Assembly (NCBI RefSeq): GCF_000763375.1
Contig: NZ_JPSY01000003.1
Coordinates: forward strand, 248,001 to 312,000
Length of the DNA stretch: 64,000 nucleotides
Reading direction: 5' to 3'
Origin: Microbacterium profundi
GTDB lineage: Bacteria; Actinomycetota; Actinomycetes; Actinomycetales; Microbacteriaceae
Positions within the stretch are counted from its first letter, which is position 1. Each line of letters opens with the position of its first letter. The position numbers were made by a program, and so were the translations under genes. Below the pieces are notes generated by a model. The model ran no database searches. It had not been told where the DNA came from and worked only from the letters and a program-made list of their open reading frames with translations. Positions 21,664-29,791 of the stretch are shown one piece after another.

Positions 21664-21736
21664 GTGGCTATAGCTCAGTTGGTAGAGCACCGCGTTGTGG
21701 TCGCGGGGGTCGCGGGTTCAAGCCCCGTTAGCCACC
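21664..21736 (+). tRNA. tRNA-His (anticodon GTG)
   Basis: Cloverleaf with acceptor GTGGCTA / TAGCCAC, D-arm GCTCAGTTGGTAGAGC, anticodon loop TTGTGGT (anticodon GTG) and T-arm GCGGGTTCAAGCCCCGT. A G at 21663 could be the extra G-1 typical of tRNA-His, opposite the C discriminator at 21736. CCA is not encoded. The accessory region begins directly downstream, but I saw no repeated copy of the tRNA 3' end further right. Confidence 0.95.
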
Positions 21737-21743
21737 CACAGAC

Positions 21744-21802: not shown

Positions 21803-21898
21803 TATTTCTTTGCCTCGGCGGCCCACCAGGGAAAAGCATGGCGAGGGCCACACTTGCTCGGCGTGCTTACCGAGGCACGGAGACGCCCGCCGGAATCT

Positions 21899-22183
21899 CT
21901 AAGCGAGCGAGAGGAAGAGCTTCTCCAGCTCGTCGATGCGCTCGCCGTCGCCCGGCTCCTCGGCTAGGCACTCCTTCAGGGCACCGGCGACCACCAGGAA
22001 GCCAGCCCGGTCGACGGCCTTCGACACTGCGGAGAGCTGCTGCACGACGTCGCGGCAGTGGGCCTCGTCCTCGACCGCAGCGATGACGGCTGCCAGCTGG
22101 CCGTGCGCGCGCCGCAGCCGATTCACGATCTTGCGCTTCGCCTCCGGGTCGTGCGCCGCGACGATGTCTGGGCTGATGCTCAT
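21899..22183 (-). CDS. cstR: CsoR/CstR-family repressor, probably persulfide-sensing
   Basis: 94 residues, an all-helical CsoR/RcnR/CstR-type repressor. Cys43 and Cys72 are conserved with the 29-residue spacing of CsoR. The copper-ligand histidine four residues before the second Cys is replaced by Ala68 (GALKEC). CsoR needs Cys-His-Cys for Cu(I), whereas CstR lacks that His and senses persulfide by joining the two cysteines. Together with the sulfur genes next door this favours a CstR role. AGGAGG-like ribosome site before the ATG. It is divergent from its probable targets, with two operators between. Confidence 0.85.
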   Translation of the reverse strand: MSISPDIVAAHDPEAKRKIVNRLRRAHGQLAAVIAAVEDEAHCRDVVQQLSAVSKAVDRAGFLVVAGALKECLAEEPGDGERIDELEKLFLSLA

Positions 22184-22198
22184 CGGATTCCTCCTGGG

Positions 22199-22249
22199 TT
22201 GACATCCACCATACTCCCCAGGGTATAGTTTGGATACCCCCCGGGGTAT
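22199..22249 (+). promoter_or_regulatory. Promoter with two tandem CstR/CsoR-type operators
   Basis: TTGACA (22199-22204), a 19-bp spacer and TATAGT (22224-22229) form a good plus-strand promoter. Operator 1, ATACTCCCCAGGGTAT (22211-22226), covers the spacer and -10. Operator 2, ATACCCCCCGGGGTAT (22234-22249), covers the predicted start of transcription. Both resemble the G/C-tract dyads flanked by AT that CsoR-family repressors bind. The minus-strand promoter of the repressor must overlap them too. Confidence 0.75.
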
Positions 22250-22281
22250 TCAACCTTCATCGACACCGCCAGGAGGGCGAG

Positions 22282-22467
22282 ATGTGCAGAGCCGCGAAGT
22301 GCAACATCTGCGGGAAGACGACCTGGGCTGGCTGCGGCCAGCACGTGAACGACGTGCGCCGCACGGTCCCGGCATCCGACTGGTGCCCCGGCCGGCACAC
22401 GCAGCGCGACATCGATGAGGCGAAGGCCTCGCGACCCGGCTTCCTCGCGCGCCTGTTCGGCCGCTGA
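22282..22467 (+). CDS. Cys-rich mini-protein A
   Basis: 61 residues. Cys2, Cys7, Cys10, Cys18 and Cys35 plus His21 suggest a small metal-binding or thiol-carrier fold (C-x4-C-x2-C-x7-C-x2-H). The core is ICGKTTWAGCGQHV. The C-terminal 20 residues are charged and amphipathic (DIDEAKASRPGFLARLFGR), which could touch a partner or membrane. GGAGGGCG lies just upstream of the ATG. First gene after the double operator, so probably de-repressed by reactive sulfur. No function is known to me. Confidence 0.8.
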   Translation: MCRAAKCNICGKTTWAGCGQHVNDVRRTVPASDWCPGRHTQRDIDEAKASRPGFLARLFGR

Positions 22468-22490
22468 TCCACTGACGAGAGGACATCACC

Positions 22491-22604
22491 ATGTGCGCAC
22501 GCATCACCTGCGACCGCTGCGGCAAGCCGAGCTGGGCCGGATGCGGCCAGCACGTCGAGGAGGCCCTCGGGGGCGTCCCGGCGGCCGACCGCTGCCACTG
22601 CTGA
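22491..22604 (+). CDS. Cys-rich mini-protein B
   Basis: 37 residues, MCARITCDRCGKPSWAGCGQ onward. It aligns without gaps to mini-protein A: Cys2, 7, 10, 18, 35 and His21 are in identical places, and Cys37 is extra. It lacks the amphipathic tail. GAGAGGA precedes the ATG at a suitable distance. A duplicated pair of such short proteins in one operon supports real translation. Zinc or persulfide carriage is a guess. Confidence 0.75.
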   Translation: MCARITCDRCGKPSWAGCGQHVEEALGGVPAADRCHC

Positions 22605-22642
22605 CGACTACAACGACGACGACGACGAACAAGGAGAGCATC

Positions 22643-24055
22643 ATGCTGCTGGAGCGCATCTACGACGAGGACCTCGCACAGGCGAGTTACGTCATCGGTT
22701 GCCAGGCGACCGGCGAGGCGATCGTGATCGACCCCCGCCGCGACGTCGACGAGTACATGCGACTGGCCGACAAGCACGGCCTGCGCATCGCGCACGTCAC
22801 CGAGACCCATATCCACGCCGACTACCTCTCAGGCACCCGCGAGTTCGCGGCGCGCACCGGTGCCCGCATGCACGTCTCCGACGAGGGCGGACCCGACTGG
22901 ACCTACGGCACCGGCTTCGACGACGCCGACCGGATGCACGACGGCGACGAGATCGTCGTCGGCAACGTGACGCTGCGAGCGGTGCACACCCCCGGCCACA
23001 CGCCCGAACACCTGTCGTTCCTCGTGACCGACGGCGCGCAGGCCCAGGAGCCGGGCTTCATGCTCACCGGCGACTTCGTGTTCGTCGGCGACGTCGGCCG
23101 ACCGGACCTGCTCGACGAGGCGGCCGGCGGCGTCGACACCCGCTTCGAGGGCGCTCACCAACTCTTCGCGAGCCTGCGCGACCGCTTCCTGACACTGCCC
23201 GACTACGTCCAGGTGCTGCCAGCGCACGGTGCCGGCAGCGCGTGCGGCAAGTCGCTCGGCGCGATCGCGGCGACGACCGTCGGCTACGAGCGCGCCTTCT
23301 CGTGGTGGGCTCCCTACCTCGCCGCCGACGACGAGCAAGGCTTCGTCGACGAGCTACTCTCCGGCCAGCCCGACGCCCACGCGTACTTCGCCCGAATGAA
23401 GTCCCAGAACCGCACCGGCCCCGCGGTGCTCCACCCCCGCGCACCGCTCCCCGAGCGGTCCACTGCGGAGGTGCAGCACCTCCTGGAGCGCGACCTCGCG
23501 ATCCTGGTGGACACTCGGGACCGCCGGCAGGTGCACGACGGCACCGTGGTCGGTTCCCTCAACATCCCGGGCGCAGCGAAGGCCGCGACCTACGGGGCGT
23601 GGGTCTACGATCCGGAGGCGGAGCACCGGCCGCTCGTTCTCCTCGCGGACGACCGCGAGGAGGCGGAGCGGATGCGCGACCACCTCGTGCGGGTCGGCAT
23701 CGACGCCGTCGACGGTTTCATCCGCTCCCTCGACGGGCTCGAGCTGGTGCAGCCCCGACTGCTGCAGCCGGAGGAGCTCGACGGCCTCGCCGACGTGAAC
23801 CTGGTCGACGTGCGCGGCAGCTCCGAGCACGCCGACGGGCACATCCCCGGCTCCGCGCACCTCAGCGGCGGCCGCGCGCTGTGGCACCTCGACGAGTTGC
23901 CCGCGGACGGCACCGTCGTGACGTACTGCCAGAGCGGCGTGCGCAACAGCGTCGTCGCCAGCGCACTGCGCCGGGCCGGCGTCGACGTCGTCGAGCTCGA
24001 CGGCTCCTACCTCGGGTGGCTCCAGACAACCGGGCGCGAGCCGGCGACCAGCTGA
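22643..24055 (+). CDS. Persulfide dioxygenase-sulfurtransferase (MBL + rhodanese, CstB-like)
   Basis: 470 residues. An N-terminal metallo-beta-lactamase/ETHE1 domain (about 1-245) carries THIHADY (His56, His58, Asp60), HTPGHTPEH and LTGDFVFVGDVGRPDL. A first rhodanese-like domain (about 260-355) has no catalytic Cys (LVLLADDREEAE). A C-terminal rhodanese (about 365-465) has the active loop TYCQSGVRNS. This is the three-part plan of CstB, which oxidises persulfides and yields thiosulfate. The ATG has a GGAGAG site. It lies in the same operon as the mini-proteins and exporter. Confidence 0.92.
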   Translation: MLLERIYDEDLAQASYVIGCQATGEAIVIDPRRDVDEYMRLADKHGLRIAHVTETHIHADYLSGTREFAARTGARMHVSDEGGPDWTYGTGFDDADRMHDGDEIVVGNVTLRAVHTPGHTPEHLSFLVTDGAQAQEPGFMLTGDFVFVGDVGRPDLLDEAAGGVDTRFEGAHQLFASLRDRFLTLPDYVQVLPAHGAGSACGKSLGAIAATTVGYERAFSWWAPYLAADDEQGFVDELLSGQPDAHAYFARMKSQNRTGPAVLHPRAPLPERSTAEVQHLLERDLAILVDTRDRRQVHDGTVVGSLNIPGAAKAATYGAWVYDPEAEHRPLVLLADDREEAERMRDHLVRVGIDAVDGFIRSLDGLELVQPRLLQPEELDGLADVNLVDVRGSSEHADGHIPGSAHLSGGRALWHLDELPADGTVVTYCQSGVRNSVVASALRRAGVDVVELDGSYLGWLQTTGREPATS

Positions 24056-24077
24056 CCGCCGAGGATCGAGGCGCCCG

Positions 24078-24851
24078 ATGACGCCGACCGCCACCATCGC
24101 CGTTCTTGCGCTCGCCCTGCTGGTCGGCATCAGCCTCGGCCTGCTGGGCGGCGGCGGCTCGATCCTCGCCGTGCCCATCCTGACCGCCGTCGGCGGCGTG
24201 GAGCCGCGAGCCGCCATCGCGTCGTCACTGCTCATCGTCGGCACGACGAGCGCCCTCGGACTGCTGCAGCACGCTCGCGCGGGCCGCGTGCGCTGGCGTG
24301 TCGGGGTAGTCTTCGGAGCGGCCGGTGTCGTCGGCGCGCTCGTCGGCGGGCTGCTCGGCCGCACGCTGCCCCCAGGCGTGCTCATGGTGCTGCTCGCCGG
24401 CACGATGATCGCCGCCGCGGTGGCGATGCTTCGCCGGCGCCCGCGTCACGACCGGGCGGAGCCCGCTCGGCCGCGCATCGCCCTCGTCCTCGTGCTCGGA
24501 ACGGTTGTCGGCTCACTCGCCGGGCTGGTCGGCGCGGGGGGCGGCTTCCTCATCGTCCCCGCGCTGATCCTGCTCGCCGGCCTGCCCGCGTCGGCCGCGA
24601 TCGGCACATCCTTGCTCGTCATCGCGATGCAATCGCTCGCCGGGCTCGCGGCCCAACCAGCACTCCCCGACATCCCCTGGGCGCTGGTGCTGCCGTTCAC
24701 CGCAATCGCCGTGGCGGGCTCCTTCCTCGGCTCGGCGCTCACCGGCCGCATCCCCGAACGGGCACTGCGCACCGGATTCGCGGTGCTCGTGCTCAGCGTG
24801 GCCGTCGCGCTGCTCGTGCAGCAGCTCGCGCTCCACCTCCCGCTCACCTGA
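24078..24851 (+). CDS. TauE/SafE family sulfite (sulfur-anion) exporter
   Basis: 257 residues, a two-repeat membrane protein of about eight helices. Glycine-rich repeats GLLGGGGSILAVPIL near residue 18 and SLAGLVGAGGGFLIVPALI near residue 145 are the TauE/SafE hallmark. The family moves sulfite, sulfonates or related anions. In Staphylococcus the cst operon includes tauE and dioxygenase genes, as here, so export of sulfite or thiosulfate from persulfide oxidation is likely. It starts 22 nt after the dioxygenase stop. Confidence 0.9.
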   Translation: MTPTATIAVLALALLVGISLGLLGGGGSILAVPILTAVGGVEPRAAIASSLLIVGTTSALGLLQHARAGRVRWRVGVVFGAAGVVGALVGGLLGRTLPPGVLMVLLAGTMIAAAVAMLRRRPRHDRAEPARPRIALVLVLGTVVGSLAGLVGAGGGFLIVPALILLAGLPASAAIGTSLLVIAMQSLAGLAAQPALPDIPWALVLPFTAIAVAGSFLGSALTGRIPERALRTGFAVLVLSVAVALLVQQLALHLPLT

Positions 24852-24876
24852 ACGACACCGCTCACCGGAGAACACC

Positions 24877-25242
24877 ATGACCAGAACCCAGCTCGCCGGC
24901 CTCGCCGGCCTCGCGCTCGCCGCCGTCACGACAGGCTGCGCATCGACGCCCCCTGGCAGCGTCGCAGCTCCAGCGGACGCCGTCGTCATCGACGTGCGCA
25001 CCGCGCCCGAGTTGGCATCCGGTCACCTCGACGGCGCGGTCCTCCTCGACGTGTCGAACGGCGACCTCGCCGCGGCACTGCCCTCGCTCGACCCTGATGC
25101 GCCCTACTTCGTCCACTGCAGGTCCGGCAGCCGGTCAGCACAGGCGGTCGCGCTCATGCGCGAGGCCGGCTTCGCGGACGTCACCGACCTCGGCGCGCTC
25201 AAGAGCGCGTCAGCGGCGACCGGCCTCGCAATCGGGCGCTGA
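24877..25242 (+). CDS. Rhodanese-domain lipoprotein
   Basis: 121 residues. The signal peptide ends in a lipobox (VTTGC, lipid-attached Cys21). A compact rhodanese domain has the active-site loop HCRSGSRS with catalytic Cys81. Being anchored outside the membrane, it would handle sulfane sulfur at the cell surface, while the CstB-like enzyme acts inside. It belongs to the operon starting at 22282, separated by only 25 nt from the exporter. Confidence 0.88.
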   Translation: MTRTQLAGLAGLALAAVTTGCASTPPGSVAAPADAVVIDVRTAPELASGHLDGAVLLDVSNGDLAAALPSLDPDAPYFVHCRSGSRSAQAVALMREAGFADVTDLGALKSASAATGLAIGR

Positions 25243-25287
25243 CGCCGGCCCATCCGACCATCACCGATCCAGGGAGCAACCCCGAAC

Positions 25288-25665
25288 ATGACCACGCGTG
25301 ACATCACCATCGAAACGATCGACTCGACCATCGCCGGCGACGGCATGGTGCTCCTCGACTTCTGGGCGGCATGGTGCGGCCCCTGCCGCAGCTTCGCGCC
25401 CGTCTTCGACCGAGCTGCCGCGTCGAACACCGACATCGTGTTCGGTAAGGTCGACACCGAGGACCAGCAGCAGCTGGCCGCGGCGTTCCGCATCACGTCC
25501 ATCCCGACGCTCATGGCCTTCCGCGACGGGATCCTCGTCTTCTCGCAGCCCGGCGCGCTGGGCCAGGCCCAGCTCGACAGCCTCATCGCCGGCGTCCGCG
25601 CGCTCGACATGGACGACGTGCGCCGCCAGGTCGCCGAGCAGCGCGCAGCCGCCGAGGCGCCGTGA
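25288..25665 (+). CDS. Thioredoxin
   Basis: 125 residues with the classical active site FWAAWCGPC (Cys30, Cys33) and the cis-proline segment ITSIPTLMAF. No signal peptide, so it is cytoplasmic. In this operon it probably reduces persulfides or recycles the sulfurtransferase or mini-protein thiols. The C-terminal tail is Arg/Ala-rich. The stop overlaps the next start as GTGA. Confidence 0.92.
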   Translation: MTTRDITIETIDSTIAGDGMVLLDFWAAWCGPCRSFAPVFDRAAASNTDIVFGKVDTEDQQQLAAAFRITSIPTLMAFRDGILVFSQPGALGQAQLDSLIAGVRALDMDDVRRQVAEQRAAAEAP

Positions 25666-25943
25666 CTTCCCGCCGCCGCGCCCCGGTCTGCGCTCCGGGA
25701 AGCATCGAACGCGTCGTGCAGGCCGCTGTCGGCGCGCTGACCGGCGCGTTCGCGCTCAGCAACCTGCACGACGCGCCGCTCGCCATCGCCGCCACGCTCG
25801 GCGCTGCGCTCCTCCTCACCGGCGCAGTCCGCGGCTGGTGCCCGGCATCGCTGCTCGCGCGAGTCAGTGCCACCGCCGCAGAGCACAACACGCTTGGCAT
25901 CCCCGAAGCCCGCCAGCCGCTCGACCAGCGAGGCCCCCGCTAG
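25662..25943 (+). CDS. DUF2892 (YgaP-like) inner membrane protein
   Basis: 93 residues from a GTG overlapping the thioredoxin stop. Two hydrophobic helices (about 25-40 and 43-58) are followed by the family motif RGWCPASLLARV. DUF2892 is often fused to or beside rhodanese domains (YgaP), so a role in membrane handling of sulfur fits. It is the last intact gene of the operon; decayed sequence follows. Confidence 0.85.
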   Translation: MTSRRRAPVCAPGSIERVVQAAVGALTGAFALSNLHDAPLAIAATLGAALLLTGAVRGWCPASLLARVSATAAEHNTLGIPEARQPLDQRGPR

Positions 25944-26123
25944 AGCGCAGGCTTCAGCCGCCCCCTCGTGCTGCCTCGCCGATTGCTAGTCGTCGAGGAC
26001 GTGTCGTGGGCCGTCGGTTCCGATGACGAGGGCTCCGGCGCAGTGCGCCGAGACGCACTCGCGCCAACGCCGCGGCGAGCTCGCGTGCAGATCGGCCCGC
26101 CAGCGCGGCCGAGCAGGATCAGT

Positions 26124-26300
26124 TCATCGGCCACGATCCGATGCCGTCACCGCATCCGCTCCGGCTGGCGGTGCGGATGCTGCGCGGTGTCCGCGGCGCG
26201 CCAGCGCGATCGTCCAGGCGACGCCGGCGAGGAGCAGTAGCCCGCCGGCGGCATTCCACGCGACGTCATACGGCAGCAGCTCCCCCGCCTCGGCTCGCGC
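26124..26300 (-). pseudogene. Remnant of a DUF2243 membrane protein gene
   Basis: Only the C-terminal piece is recognisable: ELLPYDVAWNAAGGLLLLAG and a following hydrophobic stretch, the typical last helix of DUF2243 proteins. The upstream sequence (26300-26590) no longer reads as the rest of the gene in any frame that I could follow. DUF2243 genes often sit beside cytochrome-oxidase assembly genes, and a ctaG remnant lies 290 bp upstream on the same strand. Confidence 0.6.
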
Positions 26301-26591
26301 GGCGCGCGGCATGCAATGGGGGACGGCATCGACATGCGCCCAGGGTTGCACGGGTACGGATCCTGGCTATCGGCGGACGCTCAGATCCCCATGGCGCCCG
26401 AGGCATTCTGCGCTCGTCCGGACGTCCTTAACACTCCCGGCTCCGACACCACGTCCAAGACGCTCCACCGCGAATCGGAGAGCGATGGCGCGGCATGCGC
26501 CGGTACGACGCGGTCTCTTTGAAGCGACTCGATCGCCGGTCCGGGCCGCGGCGTCCTGCCGCTCCGGTGACGGCTCCCTCCGCCGGGGAGC

Positions 26592-27072
26592 TCAGCGCAC
26601 TTGGCTTACCGCCACGCCGCCGGGCCGCCGGCGGGACGCATGACGTCCGGCTTCTCGGTACCAGCGCGCGCAGAAGAGCGCCACGATCGCGGCCTCGATC
26701 AGCTGCCCGCGTAGTACGTGAGCTGCGCGCCGGCTGCACGTCACCGACGGCATACAGGTCGGGAGGAGTGGCGAAGAGCGTCTTGGCGAGGATGCTGTGC
26801 GACGCCATCGTGGCGAGGGGTGCGACTGCGGTGATGAGGTGAGGCGCTCGATGCGGTGTCGAGTCGAGGCCGATGGCCGCGGTCGTCAGGAGGTAGCCCG
26901 CGAGGAGCAGGTGGGCGTGGACCGCCACGTGCACCAGCGAACCGGACTGCATCCAGCCGACCAGGGGTGTCGAATAGATCTGCCACAGTCCGCCGGCATT
27001 GAGACACGCTGCGGTGACGGCTCGCGTGTCGCCTCTCGCCTGGATGGACAGACGCGGGTCGGCGGGCGCCGC
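26592..27072 (-). pseudogene. Truncated, frameshifted ctaG (cytochrome c oxidase assembly protein)
   Basis: The translation LNAGGLWQIYSTPLVGW, then HVAVHAHLLLAGYLLTTAAI and MASHSILAKTL, matches the caa3-type CtaG membrane family. The frame must change near 26718 to read AQLTYYAG and again near 26690 to read QLIEAAIVALFCARWYREAG. Both changes fit loss of one G in a G-run. A stop and the next operon's promoter replace the N-terminal half. The gene is dead unless the two frameshifts are sequencing errors, and even then it is truncated. Confidence 0.7.
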
Positions 27073-27088
27073 CCTCGCTCATCCACTC

Positions 27089-27117
27089 TTGTTCTCGAAT
27101 ACTCCTGGGGGTATAGT
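27089..27117 (+). promoter_or_regulatory. Promoter with a third CstR/CsoR-type operator
   Basis: TTGTTC (27089-27094), a 17-bp spacer and TATAGT (27112-27117) form a promoter. The operator ATACTCCTGGGGGTAT (27099-27114) overlaps the spacer and -10 in exactly the way operator 1 does at 22211. It places the DUF302-SHOCT-oxidase genes under the same repressor. Confidence 0.7.
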
Positions 27118-27201
27118 TGGATGCATCAGCGGGGACCGCGGATCGTGCCGGCACAAGCCTTCGGCCGACTCCCGCCCGCCCCGAGTCGCTTGGAGCAAGT
27201 C

Positions 27202-27603
27202 ATGAGCTACGGCATCACCACGACAGTCGCCCTCCCCTTCGACGAAACGGTCACCGCGATCCGCGCGGCGCTCGCCACGCAGGGATTCGGCGTGCTGACC
27301 GAGATCGACATGGCGGCGACGCTCAAGGCGAAGCTCGATGTCGACATGCCCCCGCAGGTGATCCTGGGCGCGTGCAATCCTCCGCTCGCGCTCCGCGCGC
27401 TCCAGGCGGAGGAGTCCATCGGACTGCTGCTCCCCTGCAACGTCACGGTGCGCGACGCCGGCGACGGTACGTCGGTCGTCGAGGCGCTCGACCCGAAGGT
27501 CATGGTCGGCGTCACCGGGAACGAGGCGCTGCGAGCGGTCGCAGACGAAGCGGCGGACCGCCTGGGCGCAGCGCTGGCCGAAGTCGGCAGCGGCAACGAG
27601 TGA
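27202..27603 (+). CDS. DUF302 domain protein
   Basis: 133 residues. The whole protein is a DUF302 domain (LPFDETVTAIRAALATQGFG near residue 10, then LGACNPPLALRAL and LLPCNVTVRD). DUF302 proteins are small cytoplasmic proteins of unknown role, frequently found beside copper- or sulfur-related genes. Two cysteines (in GACNPP and LPCNV) are visible. The ATG at 27202 has GGAG upstream; an in-frame ATG at 27121 near the transcription start would add 27 residues but has no site. First gene behind operator 3. Confidence 0.88.
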   Translation: MSYGITTTVALPFDETVTAIRAALATQGFGVLTEIDMAATLKAKLDVDMPPQVILGACNPPLALRALQAEESIGLLLPCNVTVRDAGDGTSVVEALDPKVMVGVTGNEALRAVADEAADRLGAALAEVGSGNE

Positions 27604-27646
27604 CGGCGCGACTGCGCCTTAAGCACGAGAACGGGGAGGTCGAAGC

Positions 27647-27937
27647 ATGTTGATGGGCAACTGGAGCGGCATGGGCAACTGGAGCGGCATGGGCAACTGG
27701 GGCGGCATGGGCCCCGGAATGGGGTGGGTGTTCCTGCTCTTGATGATCGCGGGCATCGCGGCGCTCGTCGTCCTGACGGTGCGGCTCGCGACCGGCGGTC
27801 TGAACCGCGGAGGCCACCGGCCACCGGAGCCGCGAGGCGGATCGGCGCGCGCCATTCTCGACGAGCGCTACGCGCGTGGCGAGATCGACCACGCTGAGTA
27901 CGACGAGCGAGTCGCACGCCTGCGCGACGCTCCTTGA
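27647..27937 (+). CDS. SHOCT-domain membrane protein with Met/Trp/Gly repeats
   Basis: 96 residues. The N-terminus has three copies of MGNWSG/GG encoded by a perfect-register 18-bp tandem repeat (27653-27706). One membrane helix (VFLLLMIAGIAALVVLTVRL) follows, then a C-terminal SHOCT motif (ARAILDERYARGEIDHAEYDERV). Met-rich outer segments can bind Cu(I), which would fit the oxidase next door, but this is a guess. Its stop overlaps the oxidase start by one base (TGATG). Confidence 0.85.
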   Translation: MLMGNWSGMGNWSGMGNWGGMGPGMGWVFLLLMIAGIAALVVLTVRLATGGLNRGGHRPPEPRGGSARAILDERYARGEIDHAEYDERVARLRDAP

Positions 27938-29397
27938 TGGAGCCGATCACCCGCCGCCAGGCTCTGCTGCTGGGCGCCTGCGGCGCCGCGGGCGTGGTAG
28001 TCGGTGGGCTCGGGCTCAGCAGCACGGGTCTGCCCTGGACCTCGCCCGATGCAACGCCCTCCGGGCCGCTGGCCGAGCCGAGCTCGCTGCGAAGCCGCGG
28101 GGGCGTGCTCCGCACCGAGCTGGTCGCCGCGGAGCACGAGAACGAGATAGCCGGCCGCAGGGCGCTCGTGCTCGGCTACAACGGCAGCGTCCCGGCCTCG
28201 ACGTGGCGCGTGCGCCCGGGCGACCGCATCGAGGTCCGCCTCGAGAACCGTCTTCGCGAGCCGACCAATCTCCACACGCATGGGCTCCACGTCTCCCCGA
28301 CAGGGAACGGAGACAATCCCCTCATCAGCCTCGCACCCGGCGAGGTGTTCGACTACCGCTTCGACATCCCGCGCGACCACCCCAGCGGCGTGTTCTGGTA
28401 TCACCCCCACCACCACGGCAACGTCGCCGATCAGATCTTCGGCGGCCTCTTCGGTGCCATCGTGGTCGAAGGCGACGCGCTCCCGGTCGCCCGCGAGCGC
28501 GTGCTCGTGATCTCGGACATCTCGTTCGCCGGCGGAGCCGTCGCTGCCGCTTCGGAGGCAGATCGCATGATGGGCCGGGAGGGCGACTTCCTGATGGTCA
28601 ACGGTCAACTGCTGCCCGAGATCGTCGCGCGGCCGCGGGAGCGGGAGCGCTGGCGGATCGTCAATGCCTGCACGGCGCGCTACCTCCGACTCGCGCTGCC
28701 TGGTCAGCGGCTGGAGCTCCTGGGCATCGACTCCGGGCACGAACCGCGGCCCCGCGCCGTCGATGAGGTCCTGCTGGCTCCCGGCAACAGGGCGGATCTC
28801 CTGGTGACGATGCAGGCCGGAAGTGCCCAGCTGCGCACACTCGGCTACGACCGGGGCGCCGCCATGATGGGCGGGATGATGGCCGGCGGGGGCAGCTCCT
28901 CCGGCCCGGCGCTGCTCGCCTTCGTCGAAGTTCGCGGGCCCGACGCCGCGGTGCTGCCCGCCGTGCCCCCGCGCGCGCCCGACGCCGACCTGCGCTCCCG
29001 CACTCCCGACGCGCTGCGCGAGATCTCCTTCACCATGACCATGGGGATGGGCATGCCGCAGCAGGGCGGGATGATGGCCCTGGGTTTCGACGGGCGCGCA
29101 TTCGACGCGGGGCGCATCGATCAGCGCGTCGGCGCGGAGACCGTGGAGGAGTGGACGATCCGCAACCCCACGCCGATGGATCATCCGTTCCACCTGCACG
29201 TCTGGCCGATGCAGCTGATCCAGGTGAACGGATCGGCGATCGACGGCACCCAGTGGCGGGACGTCGTGAACGTCCCGGCTCAGGGCTCGGTCGTGGTGCG
29301 CATCGACTTCGCACGGTTCACGGGCCTCACGGTCTACCACTGCCACATCCTCGATCACGAGGACCTAGGGATGATGGGAACGGTCAAGGCTGCATGA
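27937..29397 (+). CDS. Tat-exported multicopper oxidase
   Basis: 486 residues. The twin-arginine signal (ITRRQALLLGACGAAG) predicts export. All four copper-binding motifs are present: HTHGLH, WYHPHHHG, HPFHLHVWPMQ and the type-1/trinuclear HCHILDHEDLGMM. Met-rich stretches (MMGGMMAGG; MTMGMGMPQQGGMM) resemble those of CueO-type cuprous oxidases. It couples oxidation of Cu(I), metals or phenols to water formation. The ATG at 27937 overlaps the SHOCT stop; a TTG one codon earlier is less likely. Confidence 0.93.
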   Translation: MEPITRRQALLLGACGAAGVVVGGLGLSSTGLPWTSPDATPSGPLAEPSSLRSRGGVLRTELVAAEHENEIAGRRALVLGYNGSVPASTWRVRPGDRIEVRLENRLREPTNLHTHGLHVSPTGNGDNPLISLAPGEVFDYRFDIPRDHPSGVFWYHPHHHGNVADQIFGGLFGAIVVEGDALPVARERVLVISDISFAGGAVAAASEADRMMGREGDFLMVNGQLLPEIVARPRERERWRIVNACTARYLRLALPGQRLELLGIDSGHEPRPRAVDEVLLAPGNRADLLVTMQAGSAQLRTLGYDRGAAMMGGMMAGGGSSSGPALLAFVEVRGPDAAVLPAVPPRAPDADLRSRTPDALREISFTMTMGMGMPQQGGMMALGFDGRAFDAGRIDQRVGAETVEEWTIRNPTPMDHPFHLHVWPMQLIQVNGSAIDGTQWRDVVNVPAQGSVVVRIDFARFTGLTVYHCHILDHEDLGMMGTVKAA

Positions 29398-29791
29398 GCG
29401 GCGGCCAGCTGCTGGACACCGAGGTTCGCTACCTCACCGAAGACGACGAGTCGATCGATAGCCGGAGCGTTCGACCAGTTCAAGTCCGGTGGGCGACGGA
29501 CCTATTTCCGTCCCCACTCTCCAATCAGTCACTTGCGTGGGCTCCCTCATCAGCGCCTGCCCAGCACGCTTACAGGGCACCGAGGCCAGCTCTCGAGCGT
29601 GCAGCCCTTCGCGGGGTACCCTCAGCGCATGCCATGCCCATGACCCCCCGCCGAACTGGCTGCACAACTCGGCCACGATGACGACGGGCGCGCAATCCGC
29701 GCCTTCTTCGTTACCCGACGACGGACGCGGGCACTTCAGCACACATCCCCTGCAAGCTGACGCCCGAGCAGGCCGAACGGGTGCGCGAGCG
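29398..29791. other. Gene-poor gap with possible mobile-element remnant
   Basis: An open frame from 29394 (95 codons, ATGA overlap with the oxidase stop) loses protein character after about 22 residues, so I do not call it. Near 29753-29806 the plus strand reads KLTPEQAERVRERYVAR, which resembles the helix-turn-helix end of Hin/resolvase-type recombinases. A weak stem-loop lies at about 29488-29520. Nothing else is recognisable. Confidence 0.4.

Follow-up and report, generated by a model that had tools for sequence, protein, structure and literature searches.

A putative reactive-sulfur repressor of Microbacterium profundi appears to control, along with sulfur-detoxifying enzymes, a small operon encoding a copper-containing oxidase

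The locus

Here we describe two neighbouring gene units in a 64,000-nucleotide stretch of the Microbacterium profundi genome (contig NZ_JPSY01000003.1, positions 248,001 to 312,000; the window in what follows, to which all bare coordinates refer). A gene encoding a repressor of the CsoR family adjoins a unit of sulfane-sulfur genes, and further along lies a copper-related unit made up of a DUF302 protein, a small SHOCT-domain membrane protein and a multicopper oxidase (MCO) (Table 1). A 16-bp near-palindrome, ATACY-N6-RGTAT, occurs twice ahead of the first unit and once ahead of the second. A first-pass annotation had read the gene content as persulfide pathway genes followed by DUF302, SHOCT and oxidase genes, and Pfam profiles bear this out. 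From this arrangement, and from its recurrence in related bacteria, it is quite probable that a CstR-type repressor acting on the 16-bp operators controls both the sulfane-sulfur unit and the DUF302-SHOCT-MCO unit.

Table 1. Genes and operators of the two units, in window coordinates
Feature	Position	Strand	Basis
Predicted CstR-type repressor, CsoR/RcnR fold	21899-22183	minus	PF02583, E 1e-22; 94 residues
16-bp operator 1, ATACTCCCCAGGGTAT	22211-22226		pattern match in window and genome
16-bp operator 2, ATACCCCCCGGGGTAT	22234-22249		pattern match in window and genome
61-residue Cys-rich protein (MCRAAKCNICGKTTW...)	22282-22467	plus	relatives at 8/26 operator-centred loci
Persulfide dioxygenase-type metallo-beta-lactamase-fold protein with rhodanese domain	22643-24055	plus	PF00753, PF00581 (scanned from 22646)
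TauE/SafE sulfite exporter type	24078-24851	plus	PF01925, E 4e-49
Rhodanese, lipoprotein-like start by eye	24877-25242	plus	PF00581
Thioredoxin	25288-25665	plus	PF00085; TIGR01068 barely above cut-off
YgaP-like membrane protein	25662-25943	plus	PF11127
16-bp operator 3, ATACTCCTGGGGGTAT	27099-27114		pattern match; class test on relatives
DUF302 protein	27202-27603	plus	PF03625, E 2e-23; Cys58 and Cys79 invariant in 6 aligned sequences
Small Met/Gly/Trp-rich membrane protein with SHOCT domain	27647-27937	plus	PF09851
Multicopper oxidase	27934-29397	plus	PF07731, PF07732, PF00394; conserved His/Cys motifs

The repressor and a second CstR-like gene

The repressor scores 80.6 bits against PF02583 (cut-off 22.8), and no NCBIfam profile matches it above cut-off. 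It carries Cys43 and Cys72, with Ala68 four residues ahead of the second cysteine, at the place where the copper histidine is expected; the Cys-His-Cys copper site of CsoR is thus lacking. The profile match and these residues agree with the first-pass annotation, which had described a CsoR-fold repressor with both cysteines and an alanine for the histidine. Alanine stands at this position in 26 of 47 CsoR-family relatives that do not carry the histidine. Two cysteines at the CsoR spacing without the copper histidine, adjacent sulfane-sulfur genes and operators of the 16-bp class all place the protein in the CstR rather than the copper type, an assignment further supported by the comparison of operator length classes across genera that is set out below. 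The structures 7mq1-7mq3, deposited as csoR, we take to be those of pneumococcal CstR.

Six CsoR-family genes are present in the 3.37-Mb genome: two CstR-like, three with the copper-sensor histidine and one RcnR-like. The second CstR-like gene (C1:1245278-1245544, in locus L017, C1:1235000-1252000), whose product is 72% identical to the local repressor, has its own divergent set of persulfide dioxygenase (PDO)-rhodanese, TauE and Cys-rich protein genes, as well as two 16-bp operators, so that the regulon of a single repressor and three operators proposed at first cannot be maintained. Since two CstR-like repressors share one operator class, either or both may act at 27099. It is unlikely that the second repressor governs the copper unit in place of the local one: its two operators do belong to the same class, being matched by one pattern, and the two proteins are alike, by eye, in their N-terminal helices, but in G284, a genome assigned to a different genus of the family, the local repressor accompanies the copper unit at 95.7-99.9% identity. 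As a separate observation, an RcnR-like gene of the family (L021, 4970-5317) adjoins what appear by eye to be histidine-utilisation genes, and two of its relatives (L217, L218) carry 17-bp sites.

The 16-bp operators

When up to 3 mismatches were allowed, the pattern returned seven matches in the window, six of them being the three sites read on both strands; shuffled windows gave 1.94 matches on average and reached seven in 2 of 100 shuffles. Across the genome, six places match with 0-1 mismatch, namely the three window sites, C1:293011, and C1:1245174 and C1:1245207, both of which adjoin the second CstR-like gene. Four further places appear at 2 mismatches, and a reversed control pattern (at most 2 mismatches) found one match per strand. 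The near-palindromes reported earlier at 22211, 22234 and 27099 are thereby recovered, as members of an operator class that, read from the genome, has at least five members and not three.

The first-pass annotation had also placed the 22211 and 27099 sites in matching position over a -10 element. Indeed, AGTT directly follows both sites, so that TATAGT is read across the right arm. The case for a promoter is weak, because no sigma-70-like site was found in a scan of 21850-29500 (a terminator scan was likewise empty) and TATANT occurs in 7 of 30 readable operators ahead of related oxidase genes (32 operator rows, from which 2 misplaced ones were dropped).

The empty promoter scan could also be taken to mean that the unit is constitutive and preceded, at 27099, by a site that is left over or palindromic by chance, and the DNA just upstream of it (~26.1-26.95 kb) is decayed: on the minus strand, 26124-26952 holds the remains of a CtaG-type cytochrome oxidase assembly gene (PF09678, E 2e-11). 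Such an explanation is extremely unlikely, given that shuffled upstream sequences produced a 16-bp site in 0 of 1600 cases (a 17-bp site in 1 of 1600), that the 27099 site is exact in Microbacterium sp. oral taxon 186 F0373, of the same genus, and in G284 while nearby positions vary, and that further genera, in which the genes are ordered differently, carry versions of it of their own.

Operator length and sensor type

The comparison across genera covered 85 distinct CsoR-family cores from the window and the collected loci, of which 32 have histidine and cysteines (CsoR-type), 47 are without the histidine (CstR-type) and 6 are RcnR-like; sites were sought with the strict pattern in the stretch between 350 bases before and 120 bases after the approximate gene start. 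Near CstR-type genes an operator was found in 27 of 47 cases, every one with a 16-bp site; three of the 27 additionally match at 15 or 18 bp, and none at 17 bp. Near CsoR-type genes, the operators found (13 of 32) are exclusively of 17 bp, the form also seen with two of the six RcnR-like genes. This leaves 20 of the 47 and 19 of the 32 genes without an operator under the strict pattern. No exception to the split appears when the sequences are collapsed at 90% or at 80% identity (at 80%, 16 vs 6, p 1e-5). It also agrees with published sites: TAC-X9-GTA for copper CsoR (PMC3902906) and ATACC-n6-GGTAT, i.e., TAC-X8-GTA, for the sulfane-sensing ScCsoR (PMC7533328). The site at 27099, being 16 bp long, therefore falls in the CstR length class.

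This bears directly on the possibility that a copper CsoR controls the DUF302-SHOCT-MCO unit and that the likeness to the sulfur operators is incidental. The unit encodes a copper enzyme that has Met-rich loops, relatives adjoin copZ/copA, and the genome has three CsoR-type genes of its own. Against this, no 16-bp site was found near any of the 32 CsoR-type genes sampled, and the copper loci of the same genome have 17-bp sites, except for the csoR gene at C3:51456, near which none was found. Indeed, the 17-bp form occurs at seven places in the genome (at most 1 mismatch), of which two precede copZ with csoR, one adjoins a second csoR and one precedes a copZ-copA pair. We regard control by a copper CsoR as very unlikely.

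Recurrence ahead of related oxidases

Eight related oxidases were scanned against genome contigs, the best 80 of 559 relatives were kept, and 1 kb upstream of each was searched for operators, DUF302 being scored as an adjacent gene. A 16-bp site was found ahead of 29, a 17-bp site ahead of 4 and neither ahead of 47. Among the 23 oxidases paired with DUF302 the corresponding counts are 20, 1 and 2, against 9, 3 and 45 among the 57 without it (Fisher p 3e-9 for 16 bp against the rest, uncorrected for ancestry). The placing of the DUF302-SHOCT-MCO unit under the same operator class as the sulfur genes is thus backed from beyond the window, and the search of related genomes called for in the first-pass annotation finds the shared operator before related oxidases across genera. 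In one DUF302-linked case with no site inside 1 kb (L092), a 16-bp site lies 2.8 kb upstream, followed by a row of PDO, Cys-rich protein, CstR, SHOCT, MCO and DUF302; clusters combining CstR with SHOCT-MCO-DUF302 are found in L080, L081, L092, L095, L107 and L113. In Rhodococcus opacus pRho-G13, CstR, DUF302, PDO/TauE, SHOCT and MCO stand in a row, with a near-operator TAC-X8-GTA that is seen only with a looser pattern; L230 to L233 have no match to the strict pattern, and the looser one gives TAC-X8-GTA in L232 and L233.

Several observations weigh against control of both units by the CstR type. A CopA- or CopZ-like match lies in the collected stretch around 31 of the 80 oxidases, including 7 of the 23 paired with DUF302, and this, together with the 47 loci that have neither site, means that the enzyme as such is not specific to sulfur. 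Among the 29 loci carrying a 16-bp site, the collected stretch has another sulfur-gene match in only 9 and a CstR match in only 8 (some of these matches being short); CopA/CopZ matches occur in 9. One DUF302-linked oxidase has a 17-bp, copper-class site (L090, 2614), possibly a switch of regulon. Moreover, the loci cannot be counted as independent cases: a tree of 86 oxidases requires 10 changes of the operator and 5 of DUF302, and in about 3 of 4 independent pairs differing in DUF302 the operator goes with it, in none against it, which is too few pairs for significance. The tree was built by a quick method, with an oxidase of the own genome as outgroup (branch length 10); its root is worthless, and the change counts do not depend on it.

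On this tree, the window oxidase falls together with Georgenia and Actinotalea oxidases, whose loci carry the 16-bp site but no DUF302; furthermore, DUF302 comes first in the window, where the common order elsewhere is SHOCT-MCO-DUF302. The grouping and the differing order suggest that the same gene set was assembled separately in different lineages.

DUF302 is rare in the genus (6 of 149 genomes); in the family it occurs in 31 of 299. Among 29 wide DUF302 loci, a distant DUF302 group is present in 10 (142,801 bases), none of which has a 16-bp site, so DUF302 in general is no marker of the regulon. The other 19 have a DUF302 like that of the window, and 15 of them have a 16-bp site; none was found in L071, L072, L078 and L085, the last of which does have a CstR-like gene.

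A search that started from the exact operator pattern detected it in 27 of the 80 family genomes covered, and 26 loci, one per genome and leaving out the own genome, were followed up. Sulfur-type genes adjoin 23 of them. At 15 these are CstR, PDO, thioredoxin, rhodanese or Cys-rich protein genes (thioredoxin alone at 4, Cys-rich protein alone at 6). Seven (L241, L242, L244, L245, L252, L257, L259) adjoin a pyridine-nucleotide disulfide oxidoreductase with a dimerisation domain, in three cases with a rhodanese match; these enzymes are presumably of the CoA-disulfide-reductase type. TauE, an OsmC protein and a P-type ATPase account for one locus each, and L247 completes the set.

The gene products and their surroundings

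The 61-residue Cys-rich protein, which neither Pfam nor NCBIfam matches at E 0.001, is by its recurrence an unnamed regular member of such sulfur regulons; no second small Cys-rich frame follows 22467 in the one frame read. The start of the rhodanese at 24877-25242 we take, by eye, for a lipobox.

In the copper unit, neither the DUF302 nor the SHOCT protein has any NCBIfam match. Both the PF03625 profile and the fold identify the former as a DUF302 protein: its structure model (pLDDT 88.5) matches 1q9u and 1j3m, DUF302 structures released in 2004 whose entries state no function. The oxidase has the cupredoxin domains and copper-binding motifs of its family, Met-rich loops at 311 and 368 and a start, RRQALLLGAC, that looks Tat-like by eye and that we assume to be a Tat signal. 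No NCBIfam profile matches it over cut-off; CueO identity was rejected, with NF008205 giving 158.4 bits, far under its cut-off of 525. The nearest solved chains include Thermus laccase 2xu9 (E 1e-113) and CueO 1kv7 (E 2e-46). The DUF302 and laccase genes of Thermus are two locus numbers apart.

Besides the decayed CtaG-type gene, the DNA between the units holds a weak DUF2243 trace (E 0.16, under cut-off). DUF2243 and cytochrome c oxidase assembly genes adjoin DUF302 in Streptomyces clavifer (L227), and sulfocyanin-like and CopC genes are nearby in Rhodococcus antarcticus and Mycobacterium gallinarum; these recurrent copper-related neighbours support a copper role.

The segment 21022-35178 was likely transferred recently: in gapped comparison, its blocks are 95.7-99.9% identical in G284 (L070), and in F0373 (L066, L086), compared from 22489 on, 96.7-99.9% identical. 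Two plasmid records match the island DNA: one, from Microbacterium, covers 29% of the query (PDO-TauE) at 74% identity, and the other, from Deinococcus, covers 63 bases. The segment includes a tRNA-His gene (21664-21737), and in F0373 an IS110-type transposase gene (L066, 15571-16884) splits tauE.

A possible copper arm of the sulfur response

The genes, residues, operators, operator class and recurrence are features of the sequences themselves, from which we infer binding, induction and all the biochemical roles in what follows. A persulfide-responsive CstR-type repressor would sit on the ATACY-N6-RGTAT operators before the sulfane-sulfur unit and the copper unit; sulfane sulfur would modify Cys43 and Cys72, the repressor would leave the DNA and both units would be made. 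Inside the cell, the dioxygenase would convert persulfide to sulfite, to be exported by TauE. At the cell surface, the oxidase would clear a product of the stress, most likely Cu(I) that sulfur compounds hold or reduce; the SHOCT protein would be its partner in the membrane, and DUF302 would assist from the cytosol with its two cysteines. It is also conceivable, if doubtful, that the exported oxidase is itself an O2-dependent copper oxidase of sulfide, persulfide or sulfite acting at the cell surface and replacing sulfide:quinone oxidoreductase in such clusters, with DUF302 carrying sulfane sulfur between cytosolic steps.

The recurrence of this wiring in related bacteria suggests that the sulfur response has a copper arm not yet studied. 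If control of both units by the CstR type is true, one operator class ties reactive-sulfur sensing to copper chemistry, DUF302 gains a functional setting, and 16 versus 17 bases becomes a simple rule separating sulfur from copper CsoR-family regulons in actinobacterial genomes.

Comparison with known systems

The first-pass annotation had considered the link between the two units undescribed. This stands for the oxidase branch of the sulfur regulon, which was not found in searches of the open-access literature, where no paper on CstR together with DUF302 was found either. CstR is named once in PMC3909829, in a table of copper factors, and the available part of PMC7760498 mentions DUF302 and multicopper oxidase apart from each other. 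The sulfur half is known, and CsoR-DUF302-sulfur gene combinations are in print, as follows (all from the accessible portions of the papers).

Among the closest circuits is that of ScCsoR (sco0620) in Streptomyces coelicolor, with a two-Cys CsoR-family repressor, persulfide dioxygenase, rhodanese, TauE and two 16-bp ATACCn6GGTAT sites ahead of the dioxygenase; that portion of the text names no unit of DUF302, SHOCT or multicopper oxidase genes such as the present locus has (PMC7533328). The SUL modules of Antarctic Arthrobacter plasmids share a CsoR-family regulator, sulfur dioxygenase, small protein, two rhodaneses, TauE and DUF302, but as covered in the accessible text they are annotation only, without operators or CstR assignment, and 'multicopper' is absent from the main text (PMC6305408). 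Staphylococcus aureus CstR and Bacillus licheniformis YrkD are likewise persulfide-sensing CsoR relatives over sulfur oxidation genes, in a Firmicutes regulon with SQR, DsrE and TusA homologs whose description, in the portion at hand, makes no mention of a copper oxidase (PMC9918477). Thermus TTHA1953 also exerts CsoR-family control over sulfur oxidation, although with another consensus (tested oligo TACTATACCTTGGTATGGTA) and over sox genes (PMC10318464). The copper CsoR-copZA system of Streptomyces lividans has the same repressor fold and a TAC/GTA palindrome, yet it senses copper and its site, TAC-X9-GTA, is one base longer (PMC3902906). Finally, CueO and the Thermus laccase are structural kin of the window oxidase, which differs from them by its operator of the sulfur class.

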